From IMG/VR virus record IMGVR_UViG_3300033997_000345, positions 1 through 20,069 of that record: a stretch of 20,069 nt of DNA. One strand, written 5' to 3'. A program made the translations under genes and the position numbers. Shown here piece after piece: positions 2,213 to 14,306 of this stretch. The stretch is from a virus. The first letter of the stretch is position 1. Each line of letters opens with the position of its first letter. A model generated the notes under the pieces. That model did not search any database and was not told where the DNA came from. It saw only the letters and a program-made list of their open reading frames with translations.

Positions 2213-2377
2213 ATGACCGAAACCGAAAAGCTTCTGCAGCACGCCCAAGACATCGCCCGCCGCACCTTCGTGGACCCGAGCGAAAAGGCCGTGCTGGATA
2301 TCTTTGACGAGCTGCGCGCCGAGCGTGACCGCACGGCGTGGGCGACGGACGGACGCGAAAGCGCGTCGGTGCATTGA
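2213..2377 (+). CDS. Small hypothetical phage protein, 54 aa
   Basis: The frame starts MTETEKLLQHAQDIARRTFV and ends ..RESASVH. It is short, charged and helical, and reads like a family of small accessory proteins of beta-proteobacterial prophages, though I cannot name a function. It runs against the leftward early operon and divergently from the cII-like gene. No good ribosome binding site precedes the ATG (..GACCCGAC-ATG), which lowers confidence. It would share a transcript with the zinc-ribbon gene 85 bp downstream. Confidence 0.45.
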   Translation: MTETEKLLQHAQDIARRTFVDPSEKAVLDIFDELRAERDRTAWATDGRESASVH

Positions 2378-2462
2378 GCCGTGGCCATCGAAATGGGCGG
2401 CCTTCCCCAATCGGATACGATCGAATTTCCACATATCAACCGTTTCCGAAAGGGGATTGGCC

Positions 2463-2669
2463 ATGAGCGACACGATTACCCTGTCCTGCGCGAAGTGCGG
2501 CAGCACAGAATTCAGATATCCGGACGGTATCCAGGCAAACCTGAAGGCGGACGACACGATCACCTGCAACGGGTGTGGCGCAGAGGGCAAATACGGAGCC
2601 ATCATGGAAAGCGCGAAGAAGCAGGCCTTGGATCAAATCAAGGCCAGCCTCGGGAAACTGTTCAAGTAG
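2463..2669 (+). CDS. Small zinc-ribbon phage protein, 68 aa
   Basis: The product MSDTITLSCAKCGSTEF... has two knuckles, C-A-K-C-G at residues 9-13 and C-N-G-C-G at about 36-40, the spacing of a four-cysteine zinc ribbon. A lysine-rich helical tail follows (KKQALDQIKASLGKLFK). A good Shine-Dalgarno (AAGGGG) lies 7 nt before the ATG at 2463. The gene is convergent with cro and reads against the early operon. An opposing minus-strand frame (2436-2750) is coupled to the cro stop, but it has no recognisable domain and the CxxC pattern of this frame is the better case. Nucleic-acid or protein binding is inferred only. Confidence 0.65.
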   Translation: MSDTITLSCAKCGSTEFRYPDGIQANLKADDTITCNGCGAEGKYGAIMESAKKQALDQIKASLGKLFK

Positions 2670-2695
2670 TCGCCCGGTCATTCGGTCGAGGGCAA

Positions 2696-2716
2696 CCGAC
2701 GCTGATGCAGTGTCGG
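2696..2716. other. Hairpin between convergent zinc-ribbon and cro genes
   Basis: CCGACGCTG (2696-2704) and CAGTGTCGG (2708-2716) form a 9-bp stem with one mismatch (a G-U pair in one transcript) and a 3-nt loop. No run of T follows on either strand, so it is not a standard intrinsic terminator. It lies in the 74-bp gap where transcripts from both sides would meet. Confidence 0.3.
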
Positions 2717-2743
2717 CAAGTAGCGTCAAAGCCTGATCTGACA

Positions 2744-2992
2744 TCACGCGGCCTCCTGCTGCGGCGCGGGGGTGGCGAGCTCGGGCCAAATGCGCTGCCA
2801 GTCATCGGGGCGCAGGTCGCGGCGAGATACGGCGCCATTCGTCGCGCGCTCAATATCAACGCATCGGCACACAGGCACAGGCCGAATTCCCATACGCCAT
2901 TGATAGAGGAGTGCCGGGGACACTCCGACACTTCGCGCGAGTTCTGCGGCCCTCGGCGCGCCGTCCCGGTCAAGGTAGTTCGTCAGGTTCAT
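2744..2992 (-). CDS. YdaS-like Cro repressor
   Basis: The 82-aa product MNLTNYLDRDGAPRAAELAR, then SVGVSPALLYQWRMGIRPVP, has a Cro-type helix-turn-helix (about residues 12-35) and the C-terminal VSRRDLRPDDWQRIWPEL typical of the YdaS/Cro family, where the end segment RRDLRP-DW follows a statement of the host-cell operator domain. It starts at 2992, not at the earlier in-frame ATG at 3034, because 3034 lies within the promoter and operators. It is the first gene of the leftward early operon and is divergent from the repressor gene. By analogy it should bind the palindromes at 3002-3042 and repress the repressor gene. Confidence 0.8.
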   Translation of the reverse strand: MNLTNYLDRDGAPRAAELARSVGVSPALLYQWRMGIRPVPVCRCVDIERATNGAVSRRDLRPDDWQRIWPELATPAPQQEAA

Positions 2993-3001
2993 ACCGCCGA
3001 C

Positions 3002-3017
3002 GATAGCATTAGCTATC
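3002..3017. promoter_or_regulatory. Operator palindrome GATAGC-ATTA-GCTATC
   Basis: This is a perfect 6-4-6 palindrome just upstream of the cro start. It overlaps the likely -10 region of the leftward promoter. It has the same half-site and spacing as 4090-4105 and 4116-4131, so it is probably a Cro/repressor site. Confidence 0.72.
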
Positions 3018-3041
3018 CGAAACGGCAATAGCAAATGTCAA
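3008..3041 (-). promoter_or_regulatory. Leftward early promoter (cro promoter)
   Basis: On the minus strand a perfect -35 TTGACA covers 3041-3036. The -10 is less clear: GATAGC at 3017-3012 gives an 18-bp spacer, and TAGCTA just beyond it is an alternative. The promoter is embedded in the operators at 3002-3017 and 3027-3042, the expected design for a repressor-controlled early promoter. Confidence 0.6.
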
Positions 3042-3042
3042 T
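3027..3042. promoter_or_regulatory. Degenerate operator half-site AATAGC-N4-GTCAAT
   Basis: The left half AATAGC is identical to that of the site at 4090; the right half is degraded because it doubles as the -35 TTGACA of the leftward promoter. It lies 25 bp from the operator at 3002, close to the 26-bp spacing at the rightward promoter. A further weak half-site (GCTAT, 3077-3081) overlaps the repressor start codon. Confidence 0.5.
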
Positions 3043-3079
3043 TTCTCAGTCCGCGCTCGCTACCCACAATTGCTTTGCT

Positions 3080-3454
3080 ATGGAAGAACGAAATATTCGC
3101 GTCGATAATCTCAAACGCCTCGTCGCTGCCGCAGGCGGGACCGCTTCATTTGTCCGCTTGCACCCCGGTGTCGATCCAACATATGTGTCTCAGCTCATCA
3201 ACGGGCACAGGTCGTTCGGTGAGCGTTCCGCCAGGAACATGGAGATAAAGATTGGCTTGGATCGTGGCAGCCTCGATATATCGCCGGACGCAAGCAGTGG
3301 CGGCGAATGGCCCTTCAAAACTATTGCGGCGGCGCGGTTCGACCGGCTCCCCGACCATTTGAAGGGAGTCATAGAGGGTCGCGCCCTTACAATTATCGAA
3401 GAGTGGGAAGCAGAGCAATCGAAAAGCGACCAACACTTCAAAAGAAGTGCGTAG
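3080..3454 (+). CDS. Short phage repressor (cI-like, HTH only)
   Basis: The product is 124 aa from the ATG at 3080 (MEERNIRVDNLKRLVAAAGG). The XRE-type helix-turn-helix covers about residues 10-65, with the recognition region PTYVSQLINGHRSFGERSAR and the closing MEIKIGLDRGSLD common to this repressor group. The remaining part (about 60 residues) is helical and has no S24/LexA-like Ser-Lys protease domain. An earlier in-frame ATG at 3035 would add 15 residues but lies in the operator, and neither start has a Shine-Dalgarno, so leaderless translation (as for lambda cI from PRM) is possible. It is divergent from cro. The base composition from here to about 3,600 is more AT-rich than the flanks. 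Confidence 0.75.
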   Translation: MEERNIRVDNLKRLVAAAGGTASFVRLHPGVDPTYVSQLINGHRSFGERSARNMEIKIGLDRGSLDISPDASSGGEWPFKTIAAARFDRLPDHLKGVIEGRALTIIEEWEAEQSKSDQHFKRSA

Positions 3455-3589
3455 CCCACCACCACTGCGCCTCATCGTCTTTAATTGCAGTAAAAATTTA
3501 GGCGGCACGTAACCAACTATGAAGCTTGAGACTTTCTGCTTCTTATAGGCAATGATCGGTACACAGCCGCTATACCAACCGGAGATTTG

Positions 3590-4027
3590 ATGAAAGCCAT
3601 AGCAACCGCCGCACTGTTCTCAATCGTATCGCTCACAGCCTGCGCGCCAAAGCAGCTAAACCCAGCGGACTATGCTGCGTTCGACTATCCCCCTGATCCG
3701 GTCTGCACGAACGATCGGCAATGCGCCGCTATGTGGGTTGAGGCAATCACCCAGATACCCAAACTCTCAGGCATGAAGATTCGCATGCAGACCGACAGCT
3801 ACATCGAGACTTTCGACGGCACTCGCCAAGGACGCATGTTAGGTCGCGTGGTTAAAACGCCATCCCCAGACGGGGGTTACACCATCACGTCTACTCTCGA
3901 TTGCGGCCCCATCGACTGCAAGGTCCTTGATCTGCGCGGGCAAGCACTCTTCAATCAGTACGTAACAGCGGCCGGCGCACCGTTTGCCGACAAGGCCCCC
4001 GCCGAAAAGGCAGAACCTAAACGCTGA
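3590..4027 (+). CDS. Lipoprotein between repressor and rightward promoter (lysogenic conversion or exclusion candidate)
   Basis: The 145-aa product starts MKAIATAALFSIVSLTAC: a short signal peptide with lipobox L15-T16-A17-C18. Residue +2 is Ala, so the outer membrane is the default destination. The mature part has two cysteine pairs (PVCTNDRQCAAMW and LDCGPIDC) that may form disulfides, and the segment MKIRMQTDSYIETFDG recalls a family of small bacterial lipoproteins of unknown function. The ATG at 3590 (GGAG 5 nt upstream) is preferred over a TTG at 3587. It follows the repressor on the same strand and ends at a terminator, the place where lysogenically expressed genes such as lambda rex lie. 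Superinfection exclusion is an inference from position and localisation only. Confidence 0.75.
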   Translation: MKAIATAALFSIVSLTACAPKQLNPADYAAFDYPPDPVCTNDRQCAAMWVEAITQIPKLSGMKIRMQTDSYIETFDGTRQGRMLGRVVKTPSPDGGYTITSTLDCGPIDCKVLDLRGQALFNQYVTAAGAPFADKAPAEKAEPKR

Positions 4028-4047
4028 CGGCCCTTCTGCCTCCGATC

Positions 4048-4072
4048 AAGCCCGCCCAGAGCGGGCTTTTTT
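4048..4072 (+). terminator. Intrinsic terminator of repressor-lipoprotein transcript
   Basis: AAGCCCGC (4048-4055), loop CCAGA, GCGGGCTT (4061-4068) and a T run to 4072. It separates lysogenic transcription from the rightward early promoter that follows 30 bp later. Confidence 0.9.
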
Positions 4073-4089
4073 GTCGCCGTTACAAAATA

Positions 4090-4105
4090 AATAGCAACCG
4101 CTATT
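4090..4105. promoter_or_regulatory. Operator palindrome AATAGC-AACC-GCTATT
   Basis: This is a perfect 6-4-6 palindrome whose right arm runs into the -35 of the rightward promoter. It shares half-site and spacer length with 3002-3017. Confidence 0.75.
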
Positions 4106-4131
4106 GACCAGACCAGATAGCACTTGCTAAT
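4104..4131 (+). promoter_or_regulatory. Rightward early promoter (PL analogue) for the recombination operon
   Basis: -35 TTGACC (4104-4109), 16-bp spacer, -10 GCTAAT (4126-4131). Both hexamers overlap operator palindromes, so repressor binding would occlude RNA polymerase. The first gene starts at 4178. Confidence 0.68.
4116..4131. promoter_or_regulatory. Operator palindrome GATAGC-ACTT-GCTAAT
   Basis: A 6-4-6 palindrome with one imperfect end (GCTAAT against GCTATC) that overlaps the -10. It lies 26 bp from the operator at 4090, on nearly the same helical face separation as the pair near cro. Confidence 0.68.
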
Positions 4132-4177
4132 CTTTCTCCCACGCACTCACAACCCGTGAGCAACCTGGGAGAAGGAA

Positions 4178-4600
4178 ATGTTCGCAGTCATCGAAACCAA
4201 CGGCGCCAACCACATCGCCATTCACATCCCCCACGAAGGGGCCGACAAGTCGCTGCCGGCGCTTGCCGCGATGCTGGAGCACAACGCCACGTTCATCAAC
4301 AAGGGCTGGCGCGAGATCGGTGTGGTCACGCCCAAGATGAGCATCATCCTTGGCGACAAATTCGAAACCGAGTCGGACGACGCTGGCGAACTTCTGATCG
4401 CAGCCAGCGGCGCCGTGGTGAGCGATGACTTTGCGATCGCGACGCCCGAGGCCTTCGTGAGCAACAAGAAGGCGCTCGCGGAGAAGCAAAAGGAAATCGA
4501 CCGCCTGCGCTCCGAGCTTCAAAGCGTCAAGTACCAGTTGGACGCCGCCAACGCGCAGATCAGCGCGCGCGAGTCGGCCGAATCCGACGAACCTCTCTGA
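4178..4600 (+). CDS. Conserved phage hypothetical, first gene of rightward operon
   Basis: The 140-aa product starts MFAVIETNGANHIAIHIPHE. The N-terminal 95 residues look like a small alpha/beta domain; from about residue 97 to 135 there is a heptad-rich coiled coil (KKALAEKQKEIDRLRSELQS, then VKYQLDAANAQISARE), which suggests oligomerisation. It has no family I can name. A strong Shine-Dalgarno (GGGAGAAGGA) precedes the ATG. Its position right after the early promoter is where lambda keeps N and host-takeover genes, but there is no arginine-rich antiterminator motif here. Confidence 0.75.
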   Translation: MFAVIETNGANHIAIHIPHEGADKSLPALAAMLEHNATFINKGWREIGVVTPKMSIILGDKFETESDDAGELLIAASGAVVSDDFAIATPEAFVSNKKALAEKQKEIDRLRSELQSVKYQLDAANAQISARESAESDEPL

Positions 4601-4618
4601 AGACGCCTTCCCCACCCC

Positions 4619-4641
4619 GCCCCGGGTGCCGGGGCAAGGAG
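4619..4641 (+). promoter_or_regulatory. Hairpin abutting a ribosome binding site
   Basis: GCCCCGG (4619-4625), loop GTG, CCGGGGC (4629-4635) form a 7-bp GC stem directly followed by the Shine-Dalgarno AAGGAG (4636-4641) of the gene at 4649. The structure may set the translation level of that gene or protect the mRNA end. Confidence 0.45.
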
Positions 4642-4648
4642 ACCCACC

Positions 4649-4915
4649 ATGCAACGCAAAGCCTTCCAGATCGTGATGCGCAAGACGCAGACGATCACCA
4701 GCGAGCAGACGATCACCGTGCACGCCGAGACCGAAGCGGACGCGCGCGTCCTGGCCCGGTATGAAGAACTGCCGTCGTACCTGTGGCAGGACGAAACGGG
4801 CACCACCGCCGTGGAAATCGCGCAGATCAAGGTTGCTGACGACCCGCTCACGCACTACGGCAACCTGGCGCAGACGGCTGCGCAGAACGTGGCAGCTGGC
4901 GACGCTCGGAACTGA
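4649..4915 (+). CDS. Small conserved phage hypothetical, 88 aa
   Basis: The product MQRKAFQIVMRKTQTITSEQ, then TITVHAETEADARVLARYEE, alternates beta strands and a helix. The strand-ADTEADAR-helix pattern is common in small phage proteins that carry a ferredoxin-like half-fold. No function can be assigned. AAGGAG lies 7 nt upstream of the ATG. It has high GC at third positions like its neighbours. Confidence 0.7.
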   Translation: MQRKAFQIVMRKTQTITSEQTITVHAETEADARVLARYEELPSYLWQDETGTTAVEIAQIKVADDPLTHYGNLAQTAAQNVAAGDARN

Positions 4916-4919
4916 TGCC

Positions 4920-5285
4920 ATGAACGCACGCCCCGGATTCCGTATCTCCCCCGCGCAGGAATTGCGCATGGACCTGGCCGACGACGTGCGCGCGGCGTTG
5001 CGCGCCTGCATGCACGAGGTCATCACTTACGCGGTGGCCGAGCCCAACCGCACGACGGTGGCGCACGCGATCTACGAGGACAGCATTGGCGACAAGTCGC
5101 TGACGGAAGCCTTTGAGAGCGTGGCCAAGGCTTACGCCATGGGTGACACGTTCGGCCGGATTGGCGAACTGTTCACCCGGTTCATGGACGGCGCGTGCGC
5201 GCATTACGTGGAGACGGTGGCGGACGCGATCGAAGACCCCGAGCGCCAGCTTGACGTGCGGTTTGAACTGGCGCCGCGCAAATGA
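4920..5285 (+). CDS. Conserved phage hypothetical, 121 aa
   Basis: The product begins MNARPGFRISPAQELRMDLA and is almost entirely helical and acidic (ALRACMHEVITYAVAE, VETVADAIEDPERQLD). It has no signal peptide, membrane segment or metal motif. I do not recognise a family with a known role. The ATG lies 4 nt after the preceding stop and the stop overlaps the start of the next small gene, so it is part of the operon. Confidence 0.68.
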   Translation: MNARPGFRISPAQELRMDLADDVRAALRACMHEVITYAVAEPNRTTVAHAIYEDSIGDKSLTEAFESVAKAYAMGDTFGRIGELFTRFMDGACAHYVETVADAIEDPERQLDVRFELAPRK

Positions 5286-5374
5286 TGCTCGCCGCCATCT
5301 GGGGCCTGTGCGCCCTTTACGCAATTGCCTTGATCGGCGACGCCTTGATGGCGCGCCACCGGAGAAATGCATGA
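5282..5374 (+). CDS. Micro-membrane protein, 30 aa
   Basis: The frame encodes MMLAAIWGLCALYAIALIGD plus ALMARHRRNA: one transmembrane helix (about residues 3-22) and a positively charged tail, which predicts a cytoplasmic C-terminus. It has no ribosome binding site of its own, but its ATGATG start overlaps the upstream TGA and its TGA overlaps the ATG of the next gene. The exact tiling is the main evidence. Function unknown. Confidence 0.5.
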   Translation: MMLAAIWGLCALYAIALIGDALMARHRRNA

Positions 5375-5613
5375 ACAAGATCAACGACGGCGGCCCGGCC
5401 TACCCCGCGCTGTACGAGGGCAGCACGCGCCCCGACGCCATGGGCATGACCCTGCGCGACTACTTCGCGGCCAAGGCCATGCAGGGATTTTCTACCACCG
5501 TTCGGGACTTAGGTGGAGCTAACGACGCTATTGCGCGGGGTGAATTCGATACCTGCGCTCGATTTGCATATCTGCTTGCCGACGCCATGCTGGCCGCGCG
5601 AGGTGCCCAATGA
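5371..5613 (+). CDS. Conserved phage hypothetical, 80 aa (DGGPAYP / GMTLRDYFAAKAM type)
   Basis: The product MNKINDGGPAYPALYEGSTR, then GMTLRDYFAAKAMQGF and a C-terminal FAYLLADAMLAAR, is a widespread small phage protein with the signature DGGPAYP...GMTLRDYFAAKAM. Its function is not known. The ATG overlaps the stop of the micro-membrane gene (ATGA), and GGAG lies 6 nt upstream. The segment 5490-5570 is less GC-rich than its surroundings. Confidence 0.78.
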   Translation: MNKINDGGPAYPALYEGSTRPDAMGMTLRDYFAAKAMQGFSTTVRDLGGANDAIARGEFDTCARFAYLLADAMLAARGAQ

Positions 5614-5969
5614 CGACGAATCACACGCCCGGGCCGTGGGTCCGAGACACCGGCAGCGGCTTCGGCTGCGACGTGCGCGCCGAGAACGGCCGGAAGGTTG
5701 CAGCCACCTGGGGTATCAACAACGGTGATCCGCACCGGCCGGCGTATCGCGCTGAGTGCGACGCCAACGCCCGCCTGATCGCCGCCGCGCCGGACTATCA
5801 CGACGCCGCCGGCTGGATCCTCGCTGCAGTCGCGACCAACGCCGCGCCGGTCAACGCGCTTGCTGCGCTCGAGGAAATGGCGCTGGACGGCAAGCACGTA
5901 ACCCTGGACGCCGGTCTGGTGCTGGATCTACTGAAGGCCCACGCCAAGGCCAAGGGAGAGCAGCAATGA
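5610..5969 (+). CDS. Conserved phage hypothetical, 119 aa (TPGPW / ANARLIAAAPD type)
   Basis: The product starts MTTNHTPGPWVRDTGSGFGC and contains ECDANARLIAAAPDYHDAA, a pair of signatures shared by many small phage proteins of unknown function. The N-terminal half is predicted to be beta-rich and the rest helical. The ATG overlaps the preceding stop (ATGA) and the stop overlaps the next ATG. Confidence 0.8.
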   Translation: MTTNHTPGPWVRDTGSGFGCDVRAENGRKVAATWGINNGDPHRPAYRAECDANARLIAAAPDYHDAAGWILAAVATNAAPVNALAALEEMALDGKHVTLDAGLVLDLLKAHAKAKGEQQ

Positions 5970-6331
5970 CCGCCCCGAACAGCAACATCCTGGCCCTGTT
6001 CCACGACGGCCACTATCTGGCCGAGATCGTCGGCGGCGGTATCCGCGTCGGCAAGCAGCAAGGCGCGAGCGTTGATTTCCCGTCCGGCACGGCCGAGGCG
6101 CGTCGCCTGGCCCGGCTGCACGAGGTGGGCTCAATGGACCAGATCCATGCCGAGGTGCAGACCCGACTGCAGAAACACGGGGCCGCCGCGTGCAGCGACA
6201 CGCTGAAAGACGGCGACAAGGACTGGGATACCGGCTGCCAGGTGTGCGGCCAGAAGCCCACGGTGCATCCGACCGCGCTGTGTGGCCTGTGCTGCTTTGG
6301 CGAGGCCGAAACCGCTGGGGGGAACTGGTGA
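5966..6331 (+). CDS. Phage hypothetical with C-terminal zinc-binding motif, 121 aa
   Basis: The product starts MTAPNSNILALFHDGHYLAE. Residues 1-60 form a small beta-rich domain; the end carries CQVCGQKPTVHPTALCGLCC at about residues 92-111, a two-knuckle cysteine motif likely to bind one zinc. No family function is known to me. Coupling: ATGA with the previous gene and TGATG with the next. Confidence 0.72.
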   Translation: MTAPNSNILALFHDGHYLAEIVGGGIRVGKQQGASVDFPSGTAEARRLARLHEVGSMDQIHAEVQTRLQKHGAAACSDTLKDGDKDWDTGCQVCGQKPTVHPTALCGLCCFGEAETAGGNW

Positions 6332-6489
6332 TGATCCGCCGCCTCCTGCGCGCCCACTGGGAAGGCATCGTCATGGCGCTGCTGATGACCGTCGCTTTCT
6401 CCCTGGCCGGCCTGTTGGACGAGCCGGCCCCCTACCCCACCTGCGAAGGCTGCGGCAAGACCGCTGTGGCCGCCAAGGAAAGAACGTGA
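6331..6489 (+). CDS. Small membrane protein, 52 aa
   Basis: The product MIRRLLRAHWEGIVMALLMT, then VAFSLAGLLDEP, has one transmembrane helix (about residues 12-29) after a basic N-terminus. The C-terminal tail has a CEGCG pair, which on the periplasmic side (by the positive-inside rule) could form a disulfide. The ATG overlaps the previous stop (TGATG) and the stop overlaps the GTG of recT. Function unknown. Confidence 0.62.
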   Translation: MIRRLLRAHWEGIVMALLMTVAFSLAGLLDEPAPYPTCEGCGKTAVAAKERT

Positions 6490-7475
6490 GCAACAACCTC
6501 GAAATCATCACCAGCGACATATACAACACGCGGGCGAGCTTCACTGCAGCGCTGACGGACACCTCGATCAACTTCGATAGCGAGGCCGGCTTTGCCATTC
6601 AGGTCCTGCAGAACAACGACTACGCCCTGAAGGTCGCCACCGGCAACCGCCAGTCCGTCATCAACGCGGTGACCAACGTGGCCGCCATCGGCATCAGCCT
6701 GAACCCGGCCAAGCGCCAGGCCTACCTGGTGCCGCGCGACGGGCGCATCTGCCTGGACATCAGCTACATGGGCCTGATCGACCTGGCCGTGGCCACCGGC
6801 TCGATCCGCTGGGCCCAGGCTGAGCTGGTGCGCGAGGCCGACAACTTCGCGCTGAACGGGTTCGACGCGCCGCCCACGCACGTTTTCAACCCGTTCAGCA
6901 AGGACCGCGGCGAGATCGTCGGCGCCTACGTGGTGGTCAAGACCGCCGACGGCGACTACCTGACCACGCCGATGGGCAAGGACGAAATCGACGGGATCAT
7001 GAACCGCTCGCAGTCGGTGAAGTCCGGCAGGTCGTCGCCCTGGAAGACCGACTACGGCGAGATGGCCAAGAAGACCGTCGTGAAGCGCGCCTACAAGTAC
7101 TGGCCGAAGAACGACCGCCTGTCGGAAGCGATTCACCACCTGAACACCGACGGCGGCGAAGGCCTGGCCACCACCGCCATCGCGCCGGCCGATCCTGACC
7201 TGCTACCGCGCCTGCGCAAGGCCGTGGAAGCGGCCCGGGACGCCGCCGCGCTGGAACAGGTCTGGAAAGACGGTCTGGCCGAGGTGCGCGCCACCAAGGA
7301 CATGGGCATCTACAACGCCTTCAAGTCGGCCGTGGCCGCCCGCGGCGCCGTGCTGCGCGGCGAGGCCGTGCCCACCGACACCCCGCCGGACGACGGCAAG
7401 ACCATCGACGAAGCGCCGGCCACCACCGCGCCGGACGACGACGGCTTCGGCCGCGACGACAACAGGAGCGAATGA
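6486..7475 (+). CDS. recT: RecT single-strand annealing protein
   Basis: The 329-aa product begins at a GTG (6486) with AAGGA 6 nt upstream. Family landmarks of RecT are in order: GISLNPAKRQAYLVPRDGRI, CLDISYMGLIDLAVATGSI, GAYVVVKTADGDYLTTPM, then YGEMAKKTVVKRAYKYWP. RecT anneals complementary ssDNA and promotes strand invasion together with its partner exonuclease, which is the next gene and overlaps it. The last 80 residues are acidic, Pro/Asp rich and probably disordered, as expected for the segment that binds partner proteins. Substrate: ssDNA left by resection of phage DNA ends. Confidence 0.93.
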   Translation: MSNNLEIITSDIYNTRASFTAALTDTSINFDSEAGFAIQVLQNNDYALKVATGNRQSVINAVTNVAAIGISLNPAKRQAYLVPRDGRICLDISYMGLIDLAVATGSIRWAQAELVREADNFALNGFDAPPTHVFNPFSKDRGEIVGAYVVVKTADGDYLTTPMGKDEIDGIMNRSQSVKSGRSSPWKTDYGEMAKKTVVKRAYKYWPKNDRLSEAIHHLNTDGGEGLATTAIAPADPDLLPRLRKAVEAARDAAALEQVWKDGLAEVRATKDMGIYNAFKSAVAARGAVLRGEAVPTDTPPDDGKTIDEAPATTAPDDDGFGRDDNRSE

Positions 7476-8242
7476 TGCTGATCGTCAACTGCGAGCAGGG
7501 CAGCGAAGAATGGCACGCCGCGCGCGCCGGCGTCATCACCGCCAGCATGTTCTCGACGGCCCGCAAGCGCGTCGGCGAGCTGGATGAGCGTCAGGCGCTG
7601 TACGTGGCCTACGTGAAGGCCGGTATGGACACCAAGGAAGCGGCGGCGAAGGCCGGCTACAAGACCGCGCCGCGCGCCGCGGGCGTCGAGCGTGCGCTGG
7701 CCGGCCTGCCGGTGGGCGATTTCTCGGACGAGGCCAAGAACTACGCCTTCCGGCTCGCGGTCGAGCGCATCGCCGGCCAGCCGCTAGATGAGGGCTACCA
7801 GAACTGGGCCATGCGGCGCGGCCATGAGCTGGAGCCCGAGGCCCGCATGGAACACGAGATACAGACCGGCCTGCTGGTCGAGCGCGCCGGCTTCGTGCTG
7901 ACCGACGATCGTCTCTTCGGCGCCAGCGCCGACGGCCTGATCCAGGCGCAAGGCGGCAGTGAATACAAGTGCTTCCTGGCGCCGGACAAGCTGCGCGCCT
8001 TCCACATCGACAACGACCCCAGCGAGGTCATGGACCAGGTGCAGGGCTGCATGTGGATCACGGGCCGCGCCTGGTGGCACCTGGGCCTGTACTGCCCTGC
8101 CCTGGCGTCCATCGGCAAGCAACTGTGGCTGCGCGAGTTCAAGCGCGACGACGACTACATCGACCGCCTGGTCGAGGACCTGATGGCGTTCGCGGCCCTG
8201 GTCAACGAGTACGAAACGACCCTGCGGCGCAAAGCCGCCTGA
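7475..8242 (+). CDS. Lambda-exonuclease / YqaJ-type recombination nuclease
   Basis: The 255-aa product (MLIVNCEQGSEEWHAARAGV) is a YqaJ/lambda-Exo family 5'-3' dsDNA exonuclease. Visible landmarks: W13-H14 with R17 in the opening motif, MRRGHELEPEAR at residues 113-124, the catalytic D153 in GASADGL, E163-Y-K165 (the E-x-K of the PD-(D/E)xK fold), and MDQVQG at 186-191. A helical insert occupies about residues 31-100. It resects DNA ends so that RecT can load. An alternative ATG at 7472 lies only 3 nt from AGGAG; the ATG at 7475 has a better 6-nt spacing and overlaps the recT stop (TGATG). Confidence 0.9.
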   Translation: MLIVNCEQGSEEWHAARAGVITASMFSTARKRVGELDERQALYVAYVKAGMDTKEAAAKAGYKTAPRAAGVERALAGLPVGDFSDEAKNYAFRLAVERIAGQPLDEGYQNWAMRRGHELEPEARMEHEIQTGLLVERAGFVLTDDRLFGASADGLIQAQGGSEYKCFLAPDKLRAFHIDNDPSEVMDQVQGCMWITGRAWWHLGLYCPALASIGKQLWLREFKRDDDYIDRLVEDLMAFAALVNEYETTLRRKAA

Positions 8243-10953: not shown

Positions 10954-11249
10954 TGGGCAAGGACTTCATCCCCAAAGCCGCCTGCACCGTTGCCAGCGGC
11001 GAATGCTTCTACAGCAGCCGCTGCCTGGGAAGCTGCACCACGCGCCTTCCGGCCGCCAACGCCAACGAAAAGCTGACGAAGGCCCTGGCCCTGCTGCGCG
11101 AGTTGCACGGATACATCCTCAACTTCCGCAGCGTGACGCGCTACGTCGACGGCTCCGAGATCGACAAGGCCATGCGTGAGGCAGCTCAACTGCTGAATAG
11201 TCTGCGCCGGCCTGCCGCCCAGCAGAGCGGCCAGGGCGCGGGGAGGTGA
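10953..11249 (+). CDS. Cysteine-rich phage hypothetical, 98 aa
   Basis: The product starts MGKDFIPKAACTVASGECFY and has four cysteines in the first 40 residues (AAC, GECF, RCLGSC), then a helical C-terminal part (KALALLRELHGYILNFRSV). A small zinc or disulfide domain is possible. The ATG at 10953 has AAGGGGG about 8 nt upstream; a GTG one codon earlier is less likely. It is coupled to the DUF551 gene and lies 2 nt from the methyltransferase start. Confidence 0.65.
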   Translation: MGKDFIPKAACTVASGECFYSSRCLGSCTTRLPAANANEKLTKALALLRELHGYILNFRSVTRYVDGSEIDKAMREAAQLLNSLRRPAAQQSGQGAGR

Positions 11250-11251
11250 GC

Positions 11252-12448
11252 ATGGCGGCCGCCGCCTACTACAACGAGATCGACCCTTACGCCGCCGACT
11301 GGCTCCGCAACCTGATCGCGGCCGGCCACATTGCCCCCGGCGACGTGGACGAACGCAGCATAGAGGACGTACACCCCGATGAGCTTCGCCCCTACACACA
11401 GTGCCATTTCTTCGCCGGAATCGGCGTCTGGTCGTATGCCCTTCGCCGCGCCGGATGGCCTGACGATCGACCTGTTTGGACGGGTTCCTGCCCGTGCCAA
11501 CCTTTCTCCGCGGCAGGCAAAGGAACTGCGTTTGATGACGAGCGGCACCTCTGGCCGGCCTGGCACTGGCTCATCCAGGAGTGCCGCCCTTCAGTCGTCT
11601 TTGGCGAGCAGGTTGCAAGCAAGGACGCAGAGCCTTGGCTCGACCTTGTTTCGACTGACCTGGAAGCCCTGGTCTATGCCGTCGCGGCGTGCGCTTTCCC
11701 GTCTGCGAGCATCGGTGCTCCGCACATCCGCGACCGGACCTACTTCGTGGCCCACGCCGCAGGCCAGGGATTTCAAGGGCGCCAACTCGGCCGGCAACGA
11801 GCTGGATCACAACAGCCGGCCGTTGAACGAAGTGGCCGTATTGGCCGGTTGGAGAACACCCAACACGGTGGACTCGAAGCTGGGCAACCGGAATGGCGAC
11901 GGTCAGGTGCAGTTGTGCCACCAGACGCTGTTGGCTGGCTGGCCGACCTGCACGACGATGGACGCGAACCGCGGGGCGAAGGACGCGCGCCCCTGGGATA
12001 CGGGCCGGCCGCTCAATCAGATCGTGGCGCTGGCCGGCTGGCCCACACCGATGGCGGGCACACCGGCGCAGAACGGGAACAACGCGGCGGGGAACAACGA
12101 CAGCAGCCGGCGGACGGTGGAACTGGCGACCTGGCCAACGCCACGGGCGGCGGACGGCGAGAAGAACGTGCGGACGCTGGACGGCGCCATGTCGGAGATC
12201 TCCCGCAAGGGCTCGCCGCAGGATCTAGCGCAGGCGGCAGCGATCTGCGGCCCGGCCCGGTTAACGGCTTCTGGCGAGCTGCTGATTGGCTCCTCTGCCG
12301 GGATGGAAAGTGGCGGGCAGTTGAACCCGGCACATTCCCGCTGGCTCATGGGGCTCCCGCCCGAGTGGGACGCCTGCGCGCCTACGGCAACGCGATCAAC
12401 GCGGTCCAGGCGCAAATCTTCATCGAAGAAAGCATGAGGTGCATATGA
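11252..12448 (+). CDS. DNA (cytosine-5) methyltransferase
   Basis: The 398-aa product has the conserved blocks of C5-methyltransferases: motif I FAGIG at residues 54-58 (S-adenosylmethionine site), motif [11 protein letters not shown] at 78-86 with catalytic Cys82, motif VI with Glu119 (GEQV in place of ENV), motif [17 protein letters not shown] at 155-167, and motif X near the end ([20 protein letters not shown]). The region between VIII and X (about 170-345), where target recognition should lie, is unusually rich in G/R/Q with repeats like [24 protein letters not shown], and is coded by DNA whose codon bias favours another frame (see 11379-12437). The role is probably protection from host restriction. 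It starts at 11252 with GGGAGG 5 nt upstream; its stop overlaps the next ATG. Confidence 0.88.
11379..12437 (+). CDS. Nested +1-frame gene inside the methyltransferase, WPTP-repeat protein, 352 aa
   Basis: The frame is open for 352 codons, entirely within the methyltransferase gene. It starts [20 protein letters not shown] with AGAGGA 11 nt upstream. Residues about 69-90 ([20 protein letters not shown] followed by [11 protein letters not shown]) and the end ([20 protein letters not shown]) match a protein type I recall from many phages and bacteria. Tryptophan-centred repeats (W-P-T-P-x3-D ... L-x-G/T) start at nucleotides 11748, 11850, 11940, 12039 and 12132. Codon third positions in the 40 codons from 11766 are G or C in 33 of 40 in this frame, but 19 of 40 in the methyltransferase frame. 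Function unknown. It could be a translated regulator or partner of the methyltransferase, or a decayed shared ancestor. Confidence 0.6.
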
Positions 12449-12942: not shown

Positions 12943-13203
12943 ATGGCACACGCAGCCCAACACCAAGCACCGGCCGCGGCGCCGAAGCTGCTGTATCGAG
13001 TGCATGAAGCGCGGGAGGCTCTGGGCCTGTCGACGGCGACGATCTACCGGTTGTGCGCGCGCGGCGAGCTGGTTAAGGCGCCGATCGGTGGCACCAGGTC
13101 GGTGGGCATCACCGCAGCTTCGGTGAATGCTATGCTGGCGCGCATGTCACAGCCGGTCACCGAAGAGGCCGACGAACCCAGCACCCCCTCGGTGGGTAGC
13201 TAA
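12943..13203 (+). CDS. Small HTH DNA-binding protein, excisionase-like
   Basis: The 86-aa product has a basic/hydrophobic start and a winged-helix motif at about residues 16-50 (YRVHEAREALGLSTATIYRL, then CARGELVKAPIGGTRSVGI) of the MerR/AlpA/excisionase type (helix, turn, helix, small wing). The C-terminal tail is acidic and disordered. It is the last gene before the host DNA, the usual place of xis, so a role as recombination directionality factor is likely; an AlpA-like regulator is the alternative. It starts directly after the previous stop (GAGATGTAG-ATG). Its own last codons (GTGGGTAGC) begin a direct repeat. Confidence 0.7.
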   Translation: MAHAAQHQAPAAAPKLLYRVHEAREALGLSTATIYRLCARGELVKAPIGGTRSVGITAASVNAMLARMSQPVTEEADEPSTPSVGS

Positions 13204-13604: not shown

Positions 13605-14306
13605 ATGAAAACCCTATTCCGTCCGTTCCTGCTGCTGGCCCTGGCCTTGCCGCTGGTGCTGGCCGCCTGCGGCAGCAAAGAACCCGAACAGCGCGCCGCG
13701 TTCACGCAGTTCCTGCAGACGCGCATCGTCGACAAGCCGGGGGTGCGGGTGCCGAAGCTGACGGAGGAAGAGAAGAAGTCGTTCGGCGACTACGCCGCGC
13801 AGTACGCCGTGATCACCGACTTCAATGCCGCCATGGATGCATCCGTCAAGCCGATGGGCAACCTGATGCAGAAAGGCGCCGTGCGCTCGCTGAACGACGT
13901 CATCGCGCGCCGCGACGACATCAAGACCGTCCAGACCGCGCTCAAGGACATGAGCGAGGCCCTGGCCAAGGAACAGGCCAAGGCGGATGCCGCCCGCGCG
14001 CAGCTCAAGCAGCCCGATGACCTGAAGGCGGTCTACGACAAGGCCTACGCCAAGACCGTCACGGTGCCGGCCGAGACGTTCCGCGAAGTGCTGCCGCAGA
14101 TCAGCGGCACGTTGGACAGCAGCCTGAAACTGGCCGAATACGTGGAAGCGCACAAGGCGCAGATCGACCTGTCGGGCCCGATGCCGAAAGTGCAGGATCC
14201 GACGGTGCTGGCCGAGCTGAACAAGCTGCTGCAGGACCTGACCGCCCAGGCGCAGAAGGTGCAACAGGCGCAGACACGCCTGCAGGCGGTGATGCTGGGC
14301 GGCTGA
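13605..14306 (+). CDS. DUF3053 lipoprotein (YiaF-like)
   Basis: The 233-aa product has a lipoprotein signal: MKTLFRPFLLLALALPLVLA followed by AC, with lipobox L19-A20-A21-C22. The next residues are GS, so the outer membrane is likely. The mature part contains RAAFTQFLQTRIVDKPGVRV, PKLTEEEKKSFGDYAAQYAV and long amphipathic helices, which match DUF3053 (E. coli YiaF). The family's function is unknown; an envelope role is likely. GGAG lies upstream of the ATG (11 nt or so), preceded by a structured leader. It ends at the terminator at 14330 and belongs to the host chromosome. Confidence 0.85.
   Translation: MKTLFRPFLLLALALPLVLAACGSKEPEQRAAFTQFLQTRIVDKPGVRVPKLTEEEKKSFGDYAAQYAVITDFNAAMDASVKPMGNLMQKGAVRSLNDVIARRDDIKTVQTALKDMSEALAKEQAKADAARAQLKQPDDLKAVYDKAYAKTVTVPAETFREVLPQISGTLDSSLKLAEYVEAHKAQIDLSGPMPKVQDPTVLAELNKLLQDLTAQAQKVQQAQTRLQAVMLGG

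Follow-up and report, generated by a model that had tools for sequence, protein, structure and literature searches.

Can the DNA of a phage methyltransferase gene also carry, in another reading frame, a second protein on which selection acts? The question was raised by a 20,069-nucleotide stretch of viral DNA (positions 1 to 20,069 of IMG/VR record IMGVR_UViG_3300033997_000345; hereafter, the window), in which a C5-cytosine DNA methyltransferase (MTase) gene of the phrog_363 family (11246..12448, + strand, 400 amino acids, GTG start) encloses a nested gene of the phrog_1008 / phrog_31772 family, read from the same strand in the +1 frame (11379..12437, 352 amino acids, ATG start). The list of open reading frames (ORFs) agreed with the initial annotation, made from the window alone, that a 352-codon ORF lies wholly inside the 400-codon MTase gene; it ends 11 nucleotides ahead of the MTase ORF. 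The third-position G/C counts of that annotation were reproduced exactly: 37/42 in the MTase frame from 11252, 26/40 (MTase) versus 25/40 (nested) from 11378, and 19/40 versus 33/40 from 11765. Four lines of evidence support its larger claim, that a second protein is coded here with selection acting on both frames: substitution by codon position, synonymous constraint, conservation of the start site, and replication in other lineages. The nested ORF is genuine as described, with its coding status indicated by comparison across loci, and we consider it very probable that selection maintains two reading frames in this one segment of DNA, that of the MTase and that of the nested +1 protein, a statement that leaves function aside.

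Results

Recurrence of the overlapping pair

When compared by tblastn with 50,697 phage records, the nested protein was matched in 197 and the MTase in 387. The phage set of loci consisted of the best 80 found through the nested protein, the best 80 found through the MTase (many contigs being shared), and the window, giving 161, and the two frames stood in the identical +1 relation in 161/161. The check for a single ORF judged alignment starts only, and it let through internal stops in the nested frame of locus L029 and in the MTase frame of L006, whose contig is that of L090. The bacterial set consisted of 79 loci, fetched out of 148 confirmed, from genomes and bins, a few of them with a broken frame; they were mostly from Proteobacteria, plus relatives of Desulfovibrio, and metagenome bins contributed a planctomycete, an acidobacterium, and a member of the Kiritimatiellae.

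Both frames were full length, and always in the +1 relation, in 229 of the 240 loci (172 distinct nested sequences). The 11 exceptions were loci with a broken frame (a clean stop in the nested frame of L029; frame-broken copies in L223 and L229; a stop in the MTase frame of L006, which equals L090, and of L189), loci cut by a contig end (L028, L073, L230, and L201, the last of which also has an insertion), and L174, which failed the start threshold alone. No allele without the nested gene was seen among the 240 fetched loci. Homologues of the nested gene outside an MTase gene, proposed as a check in the initial annotation, were looked for in a small search (185 genomes and the 79 best-match contig loci), and no stand-alone nested gene was found: the 79 bacterial loci and 5/5 matches in the genomes all lay within C5 MTase genes. 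Since the same arrangement recurs in phages, and in prophages, whose bacteria are only very distantly related, the overlapping pair looks old and selected, and not like a chance open frame. In one locus, L072, the nested frame is open for about 1,100 codons (2435-5743), far past the MTase.

Substitution pattern and synonymous constraint

Substitutions were counted by codon position in blastn DNA alignments, which are blind to frame, for 76 of 101 representatives; among the 25 left out, 8 were broken, cut, or insertion-bearing or had frames running on, and 17 were without recognisable landmarks. From about 2.02 million aligned bases, 54,985 were excluded where the register differed between the two loci. 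It was found that, in segments of 80-90% identity, the rates at MTase positions 1, 2, and 3 were.080,.047, and.400 in the zone before the nested gene,.141,.106, and.260 in the N-terminal overlap,.338,.097, and.072 in the centre, and.158,.084, and.166 in the C-terminal overlap. MTase positions 1, 2, and 3 are nested positions 3, 1, and 2. Therefore, because the fastest site of the centre, MTase position 1, is position 3 of the nested frame, the centre is conserved as the nested protein. The frame-blind count bears out an earlier, biased one that had been conditioned on nested similarity.

The residues of the centre point the same way. The closest relative, L001, was identical at 149/160 residues in the nested frame versus 115/160 in the MTase frame, and in five remoter relatives the values were 60-87/160 (nested) and 49-72/160 (MTase), both having fallen through module exchange. 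Multispecific target-recognition modules in the MTase frame were ruled out for the centre, MTase position 1 being the fastest there.

Across 166 non-redundant loci, synonymous choice at conserved MTase residues was near background to about residue 75, then collapsed, and partly recovered at the end. The strong constraint sets in at MTase motif IV (PCQPFSAAG, 11492..11518, + strand). Of 13 ten-residue blocks (MTase residues 82-161 and 332-381), 10 had a synonymous codon entropy of 0.23-0.75 bits, where 1.3-1.8 would be expected, and the other three had 0.84-1.35 bits; earlier blocks were near expectation. Valine 123 is GTT in 165/166 loci, and valine 359 is GTT in 161/161 loci having valine, with L102, P104, R162, and R164 being examples of free codons within the constrained part.

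Judged from these alignments, constraint falls on both frames where the nested gene underlies motifs IV-VIII and IX-X, whereas the sequence of the centre is dictated by the nested protein, the MTase there tolerating a stop-free variable linker. The overlap is thus wider than the target-recognition segment of the MTase, in which the initial annotation had placed it. Its proposal that selection acts on both frames stands for those two parts but not for the centre, where selection acts almost solely on the nested frame and the MTase frame is mainly kept open.

Permutation of codons and integrity of the methyltransferase frame

For the window, 35% of permutations of the synonymous MTase codons left the nested frame open from end to end of the overlap, and 100% left its central part open; the averages over loci, all known beforehand to be open in both frames, were 10% for the whole overlap and 45% for the centre alone. 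Permuting the nested codons instead left the central MTase frame open in an average of 14% of trials. The open nested frame of the window is by itself weak evidence, because the window is GC-rich and the frame stays open in 35% of permutations. On this sequence evidence, the case for dual coding is carried by the substitution pattern across loci and not by the openness of a single locus.

The outer frame matched phrog_363 over residues 2-397 (7e-88) and PF00145 over residues 78-191 only (5e-13), and its TIGR00675 score was under the cut-off (36 of 101 bits). Stretches that we take to be catalytic motifs I (FAGIG, 11411..11425), IV, VIII, and X (motif X region, 12368..12397; both on the + strand) occur in order; across 45 aligned members, little or no variation is seen in the catalytic motifs and motif X. 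Motif VI of C5 MTases is usually ENV; the window reads GEQV. By these matches, the outer frame is a phage C5-cytosine MTase of putative activity. A decaying MTase frame, with the nested protein as the product that works, is extremely unlikely. Decay would account for the poor conservation of central MTase residues and for the stops in the MTase frame of a few loci (L006 = L090, L189), but it is at odds with the near invariance of the motifs, with the purifying selection on the MTase in the zones outside the nested gene, and with a central MTase frame that, given the nested protein, is open in just 14% of permutations.

Start of the nested gene

An ATG was found at MTase codon 41 in 125/166 loci, at codon 45 in 73/166, and at either in 155/166; it is usable, with no later stop cutting it off, in 154/166. 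In 10 loci the first site lies ahead of the open part of the nested frame, and 8 of these have the second ATG. Codon 37 is AGG or CGG in 80/125 loci with an ATG at codon 41 versus 3/41 without (Fisher p 8.5e-11), which permits AGGAG or CGGAG upstream of the first ATG; control codons 21 (p = 1), 67, and 75 showed no link to the ATG at codon 41. The window reads ACG (11367-11369) where most relatives have the earlier ATG and belongs to the minority with the second ATG only; a candidate weak Shine-Dalgarno sequence (agagg, 11362..11366, + strand) may serve it from 12 nucleotides ahead. Conservation points to probable independent initiation of the nested protein at an ATG of its own, preceded closely in roughly half of the loci by Shine-Dalgarno-like MTase codons 37-38.

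Programmed +1 frameshifting from the MTase, which would make the nested frame part of a fusion with no start of its own, appears improbable. It would suit the strong synonymous constraint that begins only about 35-45 codons past the candidate start codons, the unconstrained look of the first nested residues, and the 12/166 loci with no usable ATG at either site. The usable ATG in the other 154, the second ATG in 8/10 loci whose first is cut off, and the link of Shine-Dalgarno-like codons to the upstream ATG argue instead for a separate start, as does the finding that, in two other lineages, an ATG lies at most 15 codons ahead of a QxxLF peptide (described below) in 47/59 loci, and an ATG, GTG, or TTG in 57/59.

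Other methyltransferase lineages and ordinary methyltransferases

The nested profile matched the +1 frame in four of five remote C5 MTase records (Vequintavirus, 1e-24; Paenibacillus phage, 2e-13; mycobacteriophage, 1e-5; Lactobacillus phage, 1e-4; E-values computed for a small ORF set), and was without a match in the +1 frame of the fifth, Gordonia phage GordDuk1. Escherichia phage CarlMeissner, an isolate from E. coli K-12, has the pair in a short form. A +1 ORF of at least 150 amino acids inside the MTase was present in 73/80 relatives of the Paenibacillus copy, 33/35 of the mycobacteriophage copy, and 29/31 of the Lactobacillus copy, with shuffle P<.05 in 91%, 71%, and 94% of the loci, respectively. 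The median G+C content (GC) was.49 in the Paenibacillus lineage,.50 in the Lactobacillus lineage, and.62 in the mycobacteriophage set. Substitutions, counted in segments of at most 97% identity from the 31/80, 24/35, and 27/31 loci whose motifs could be recognised, were MTase-like before the nested gene and after the nested stop and nested-like in the centre. The pattern recurs in remote MTase lineages, clearly in two and weakly in the third, that of the mycobacteriophages.

As a negative control, 30 PF00145 loci were fetched from 114 genomes; 4 of these loci were without an ORF recognised by the search pattern. The remaining 26 ordinary bacterial C5 MTases had a median +1 ORF of 69 amino acids, with P<.05 in one (L422), and the nested profile matched in 0/26. 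Three nested-bearing copies scored lower in this PF00145 search and fell outside the 30 fetched.

These lineages bear on the view that the MTase alone is real and the nested frame is a shadow of conserved GC-rich sequence, to which we give hardly any credence. Any frame seems conserved under conserved motifs, and high GC leaves fewer stops, as in the window with its 35% of shuffles open; moreover, only 71% of the GC-rich mycobacteriophage-lineage loci attain shuffle P<.05. However, the nested frame is conserved where the MTase frame is not, synonymous constraint sets in within the nested gene and not at the MTase start, the frame is long and open at median GC.49 (P<.05 in 91% of loci) and at.50 (94%), and it is lacking in ordinary C5 MTases. 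A shadow of conservation was ruled out by the substitution and synonymous-site tests, and a chance open frame from high GC by the lineages of median GC.49 and.50 together with the ordinary C5 MTase control.

Several observations weigh against dual coding. Choosing loci by best match favours intact copies, and the loci are mutually related. An open nested frame counts for little in the centre, because permutations leave the centre open in an average of 45% of trials (100% in the window). The first 28 or so nested residues are without synonymous constraint, and the nested start of the window is suboptimal, with ACG at the usual ATG and a Shine-Dalgarno spacing of 12 nucleotides. The mycobacteriophage set gave the weakest contrast, with rates of.307,.171, and.176 in the centre, and an LTWK-like core in 0/35 of its loci.

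Parts and modules of the nested protein

The nested frame matched phrog_31772 (4e-48) and phrog_1008 (1e-45, best stretch residues 4-201), and its layout is a conserved N-terminal core, a variable centre, and a conserved C-terminus. In the window, all on the + strand, the constrained part begins at TIDLF (nested residues 29-33, 11463..11477), at about the position of a QLTLF peptide in other lineages, and is followed by the conserved core (11574..11717), for which a helix (66-84) and two strands (91-99 and 105-113) are predicted with low to moderate confidence. Five modules named for the motif WPTP make up the centre: module 1 (11748..11849, residues 124-157), module 2 (11850..11939, residues 158-187, reading WRTP), module 3 (11940..12038, residues 188-220, reading WPTC), module 4 (12039..12131, residues 221-251), and module 5 (12132..12251, residues 252-291). 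The conserved C-terminus begins PARLTASGE (12252..12434) and is read over MTase motifs IX-X.

In the 166 loci, we recognised 498 central modules with a median of 38 residues, falling into 218 clusters; in 4 loci none was recognised. The commonest cluster, to which module 4 of the window belongs, was found in 30 of the 166 loci, at five array positions and with 26 different left neighbours. Because this cluster varies in array position and left neighbours, the modules appear to reassort between loci.

In L002, L200, and L201, an insertion places motif X 180, 179, and 223 residues, respectively, past a conserved DGKWR stretch, versus 23 in the window. In L002 and L201, the nested gene ends where the insertion begins and still has its complete C-terminus, which suggests that selection acts on this C-terminus as protein. 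The insertion in the three loci is roughly 155-200 residues long (the MTase ORF of L002 being 2359-4083), and the inserted residues of L002 and L200 are alike.

Searches of Pfam, NCBIfam, and PDB sequences with the nested protein were uninformative, and 0/45 nested members matched Pfam at E 0.01. This bears on the possibility that the nested gene is a selfish insertion, for example an out-of-frame homing endonuclease such as that of ShiLan (see Discussion), which we regard as very unlikely. The WPTP modules do move between loci, as such an element might; but the 45 nested members, matching no Pfam family, have no HNH or other endonuclease domain, and no allele without the nested gene was seen among the 240 loci. 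Nor can the gene be a simple insertion, because the overlap covers catalytic motifs.

A clamp-like peptide and possible functions

A QxxLF-like peptide was found near the nested start in 59/71 loci of the Paenibacillus and Lactobacillus lineages, versus 5.6% in MTase-preserving shuffles, and the strict form Q[LM]x[LI][FW] in 45/71, versus 1.1%. Its place ahead of the core differs in several loci (for example, QKELF in L321, L335, and L338), as would be expected of a real short motif. In the lineage of the window, xx[DS]LF stands at this place in 91/166 loci (4.7 expected) and Qxx[LIMF][FWLY] in 11 (0.3 expected). Four C5 MTases, L403-L406, have an N-terminal +1 frame without QLTLF, with ALTLS or ALTSL instead; WPTP-like modules were seen in L403 and L405.

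According to the available text of PMC9690074, bacterial sliding-clamp binders carry QL(S/D)LF at the C-terminus, whereas the QxxLF-like peptide of the nested protein is N-terminal. On the other side of the balance, the strict clamp peptide occurs in 2/166 loci of the window lineage, the window itself having TIDLF with no Q; the loose form is absent in 12/71 loci of the Paenibacillus and Lactobacillus lineages; and among 26 loci of the mycobacteriophage lineage, the loose form occurs in 4 and the strict form in none. AlphaFold models of the nested protein were weak, with mean pLDDT (predicted local distance difference test) values of 54.8 and 62.9, and a Foldseek search of the second (62.9) gave no match at E <= 0.001. 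The sliding-clamp link is therefore best described as a lead, not a result.

A model that would join these features, possible but well short of probable, is that the nested protein is a partner at the replication fork. The second protein of the inner +1 frame, with its conserved ends and its central WPTP modules of about 30-40 residues exchanged between phages, would be tethered to the bacterial sliding clamp by a QLxLF-type peptide near its N-terminus (distinct in two other lineages, only TIDLF here); it would help methylation or protection of newly made phage DNA; and the modules would serve as the variable recognition part. It is about equally conceivable, in our estimate, that the nested protein is real but acts apart from the MTase, for example as an inhibitor of the host clamp or of host restriction (such as methylation-dependent restriction provoked by the MTase), its modules having been diversified by an arms race. 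Module reshuffling would suit a conflict protein, and a clamp-like peptide fits take-over of host replication as well as recruitment; the toxin SocB blocks the sliding clamp through a motif of this kind (available text of PMC9690074). Against a separate role, the nested protein was found, in the small search above, only within MTase genes, which suggests, without proving, a joint function. Some weight is also left for functions of other kinds. The fullest form of the partner model, which we put forward as speculative and rather unlikely as a whole, is of an old dual-coded pair present in phages of Proteobacteria, of Firmicutes, and probably of Actinobacteria. Its MTase would work with a clamp-docked fork adaptor or specificity subunit, and interchangeable WPTP modules would set the host defence or the site addressed.

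Genomic neighbourhood

Ten neighbouring ORFs were scanned. RecT-like and RecE-like genes (6282-8242) lie upstream of the pair and an excisionase-like gene (12943-13203) downstream, an arrangement in keeping with the early region of a temperate phage. Farther on, at 13605, lies a lipoprotein-like ORF that matches no PHROG; it is a hint that a prophage may end near 13.3 kb.

Discussion

The nested protein belongs to an already listed family (phrog_1008, with phrog_31772, phrog_27243, and phrog_26627), and phrog_1008 was matched by 78/78 members of our cross-lineage alignment A3. The label of phrog_1008, 'DNA methyltransferase', suits the enclosing gene, whereas the 45 nested members tested match no Pfam family and are read in another frame; with such a label on a +1-frame protein of phrog_1008/phrog_31772, copied annotation may call the wrong frame the MTase. 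In the GenBank record of Escherichia phage K1G, both genes are annotated, ORF31 as a methylase and the nested ORF30 as a 'putative Mte8-like protein'; ORF30 has the same conserved ends but one WPTP module only. A full-text search for the name 'Mte8' returned a single phage paper, the available text of which just lists the name without explanation (PMC5582158).

Exchangeable modules in a variable region are also found in the multispecific C5 MTases of Bacillus phages, whose target-recognition domains lie between motifs VIII and IX; there, the modules are in the MTase frame, whereas here they are in a conserved other frame. The closest parallel that we found is the ShiLan domain, an out-of-frame HNH endonuclease within a phage DNA methylase (PMC11855218). 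According to the available text, the methylase frame of ShiLan is open, as here, and is predicted to loop the stretch out. ShiLan is an insertion with a homing nuclease, however, whereas the present nested gene overlaps catalytic motifs, has no Pfam nuclease domain, and is kept throughout large lineages. For the clamp, DNMT1 offers a works-like comparison only: this cytosine MTase is brought to new DNA by the sliding clamp PCNA (available text of PMC9690074), whereas the clamp-like peptide here is on a separate, overlapping protein and clamp binding is putative. No published account of the present overlap was found in the open literature, subscription papers being mostly outside that search.

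To our knowledge, there are few documented cases outside small viruses of a long gene lying wholly within another on the same strand and deeply conserved with it. Only a few long prokaryotic overlaps are described as fully established in the available text of PMC9927249. The present overlap exceeds 1 kb, and the nested protein is found in 197 phage records and in genomes and bins of several bacterial phyla, yet it is filed under the name of its host gene. The pair is readily testable, because either frame can be silenced without altering the other protein, and it bears on annotation, on the rise of new proteins atop an enzyme core, and on phage counter-restriction.
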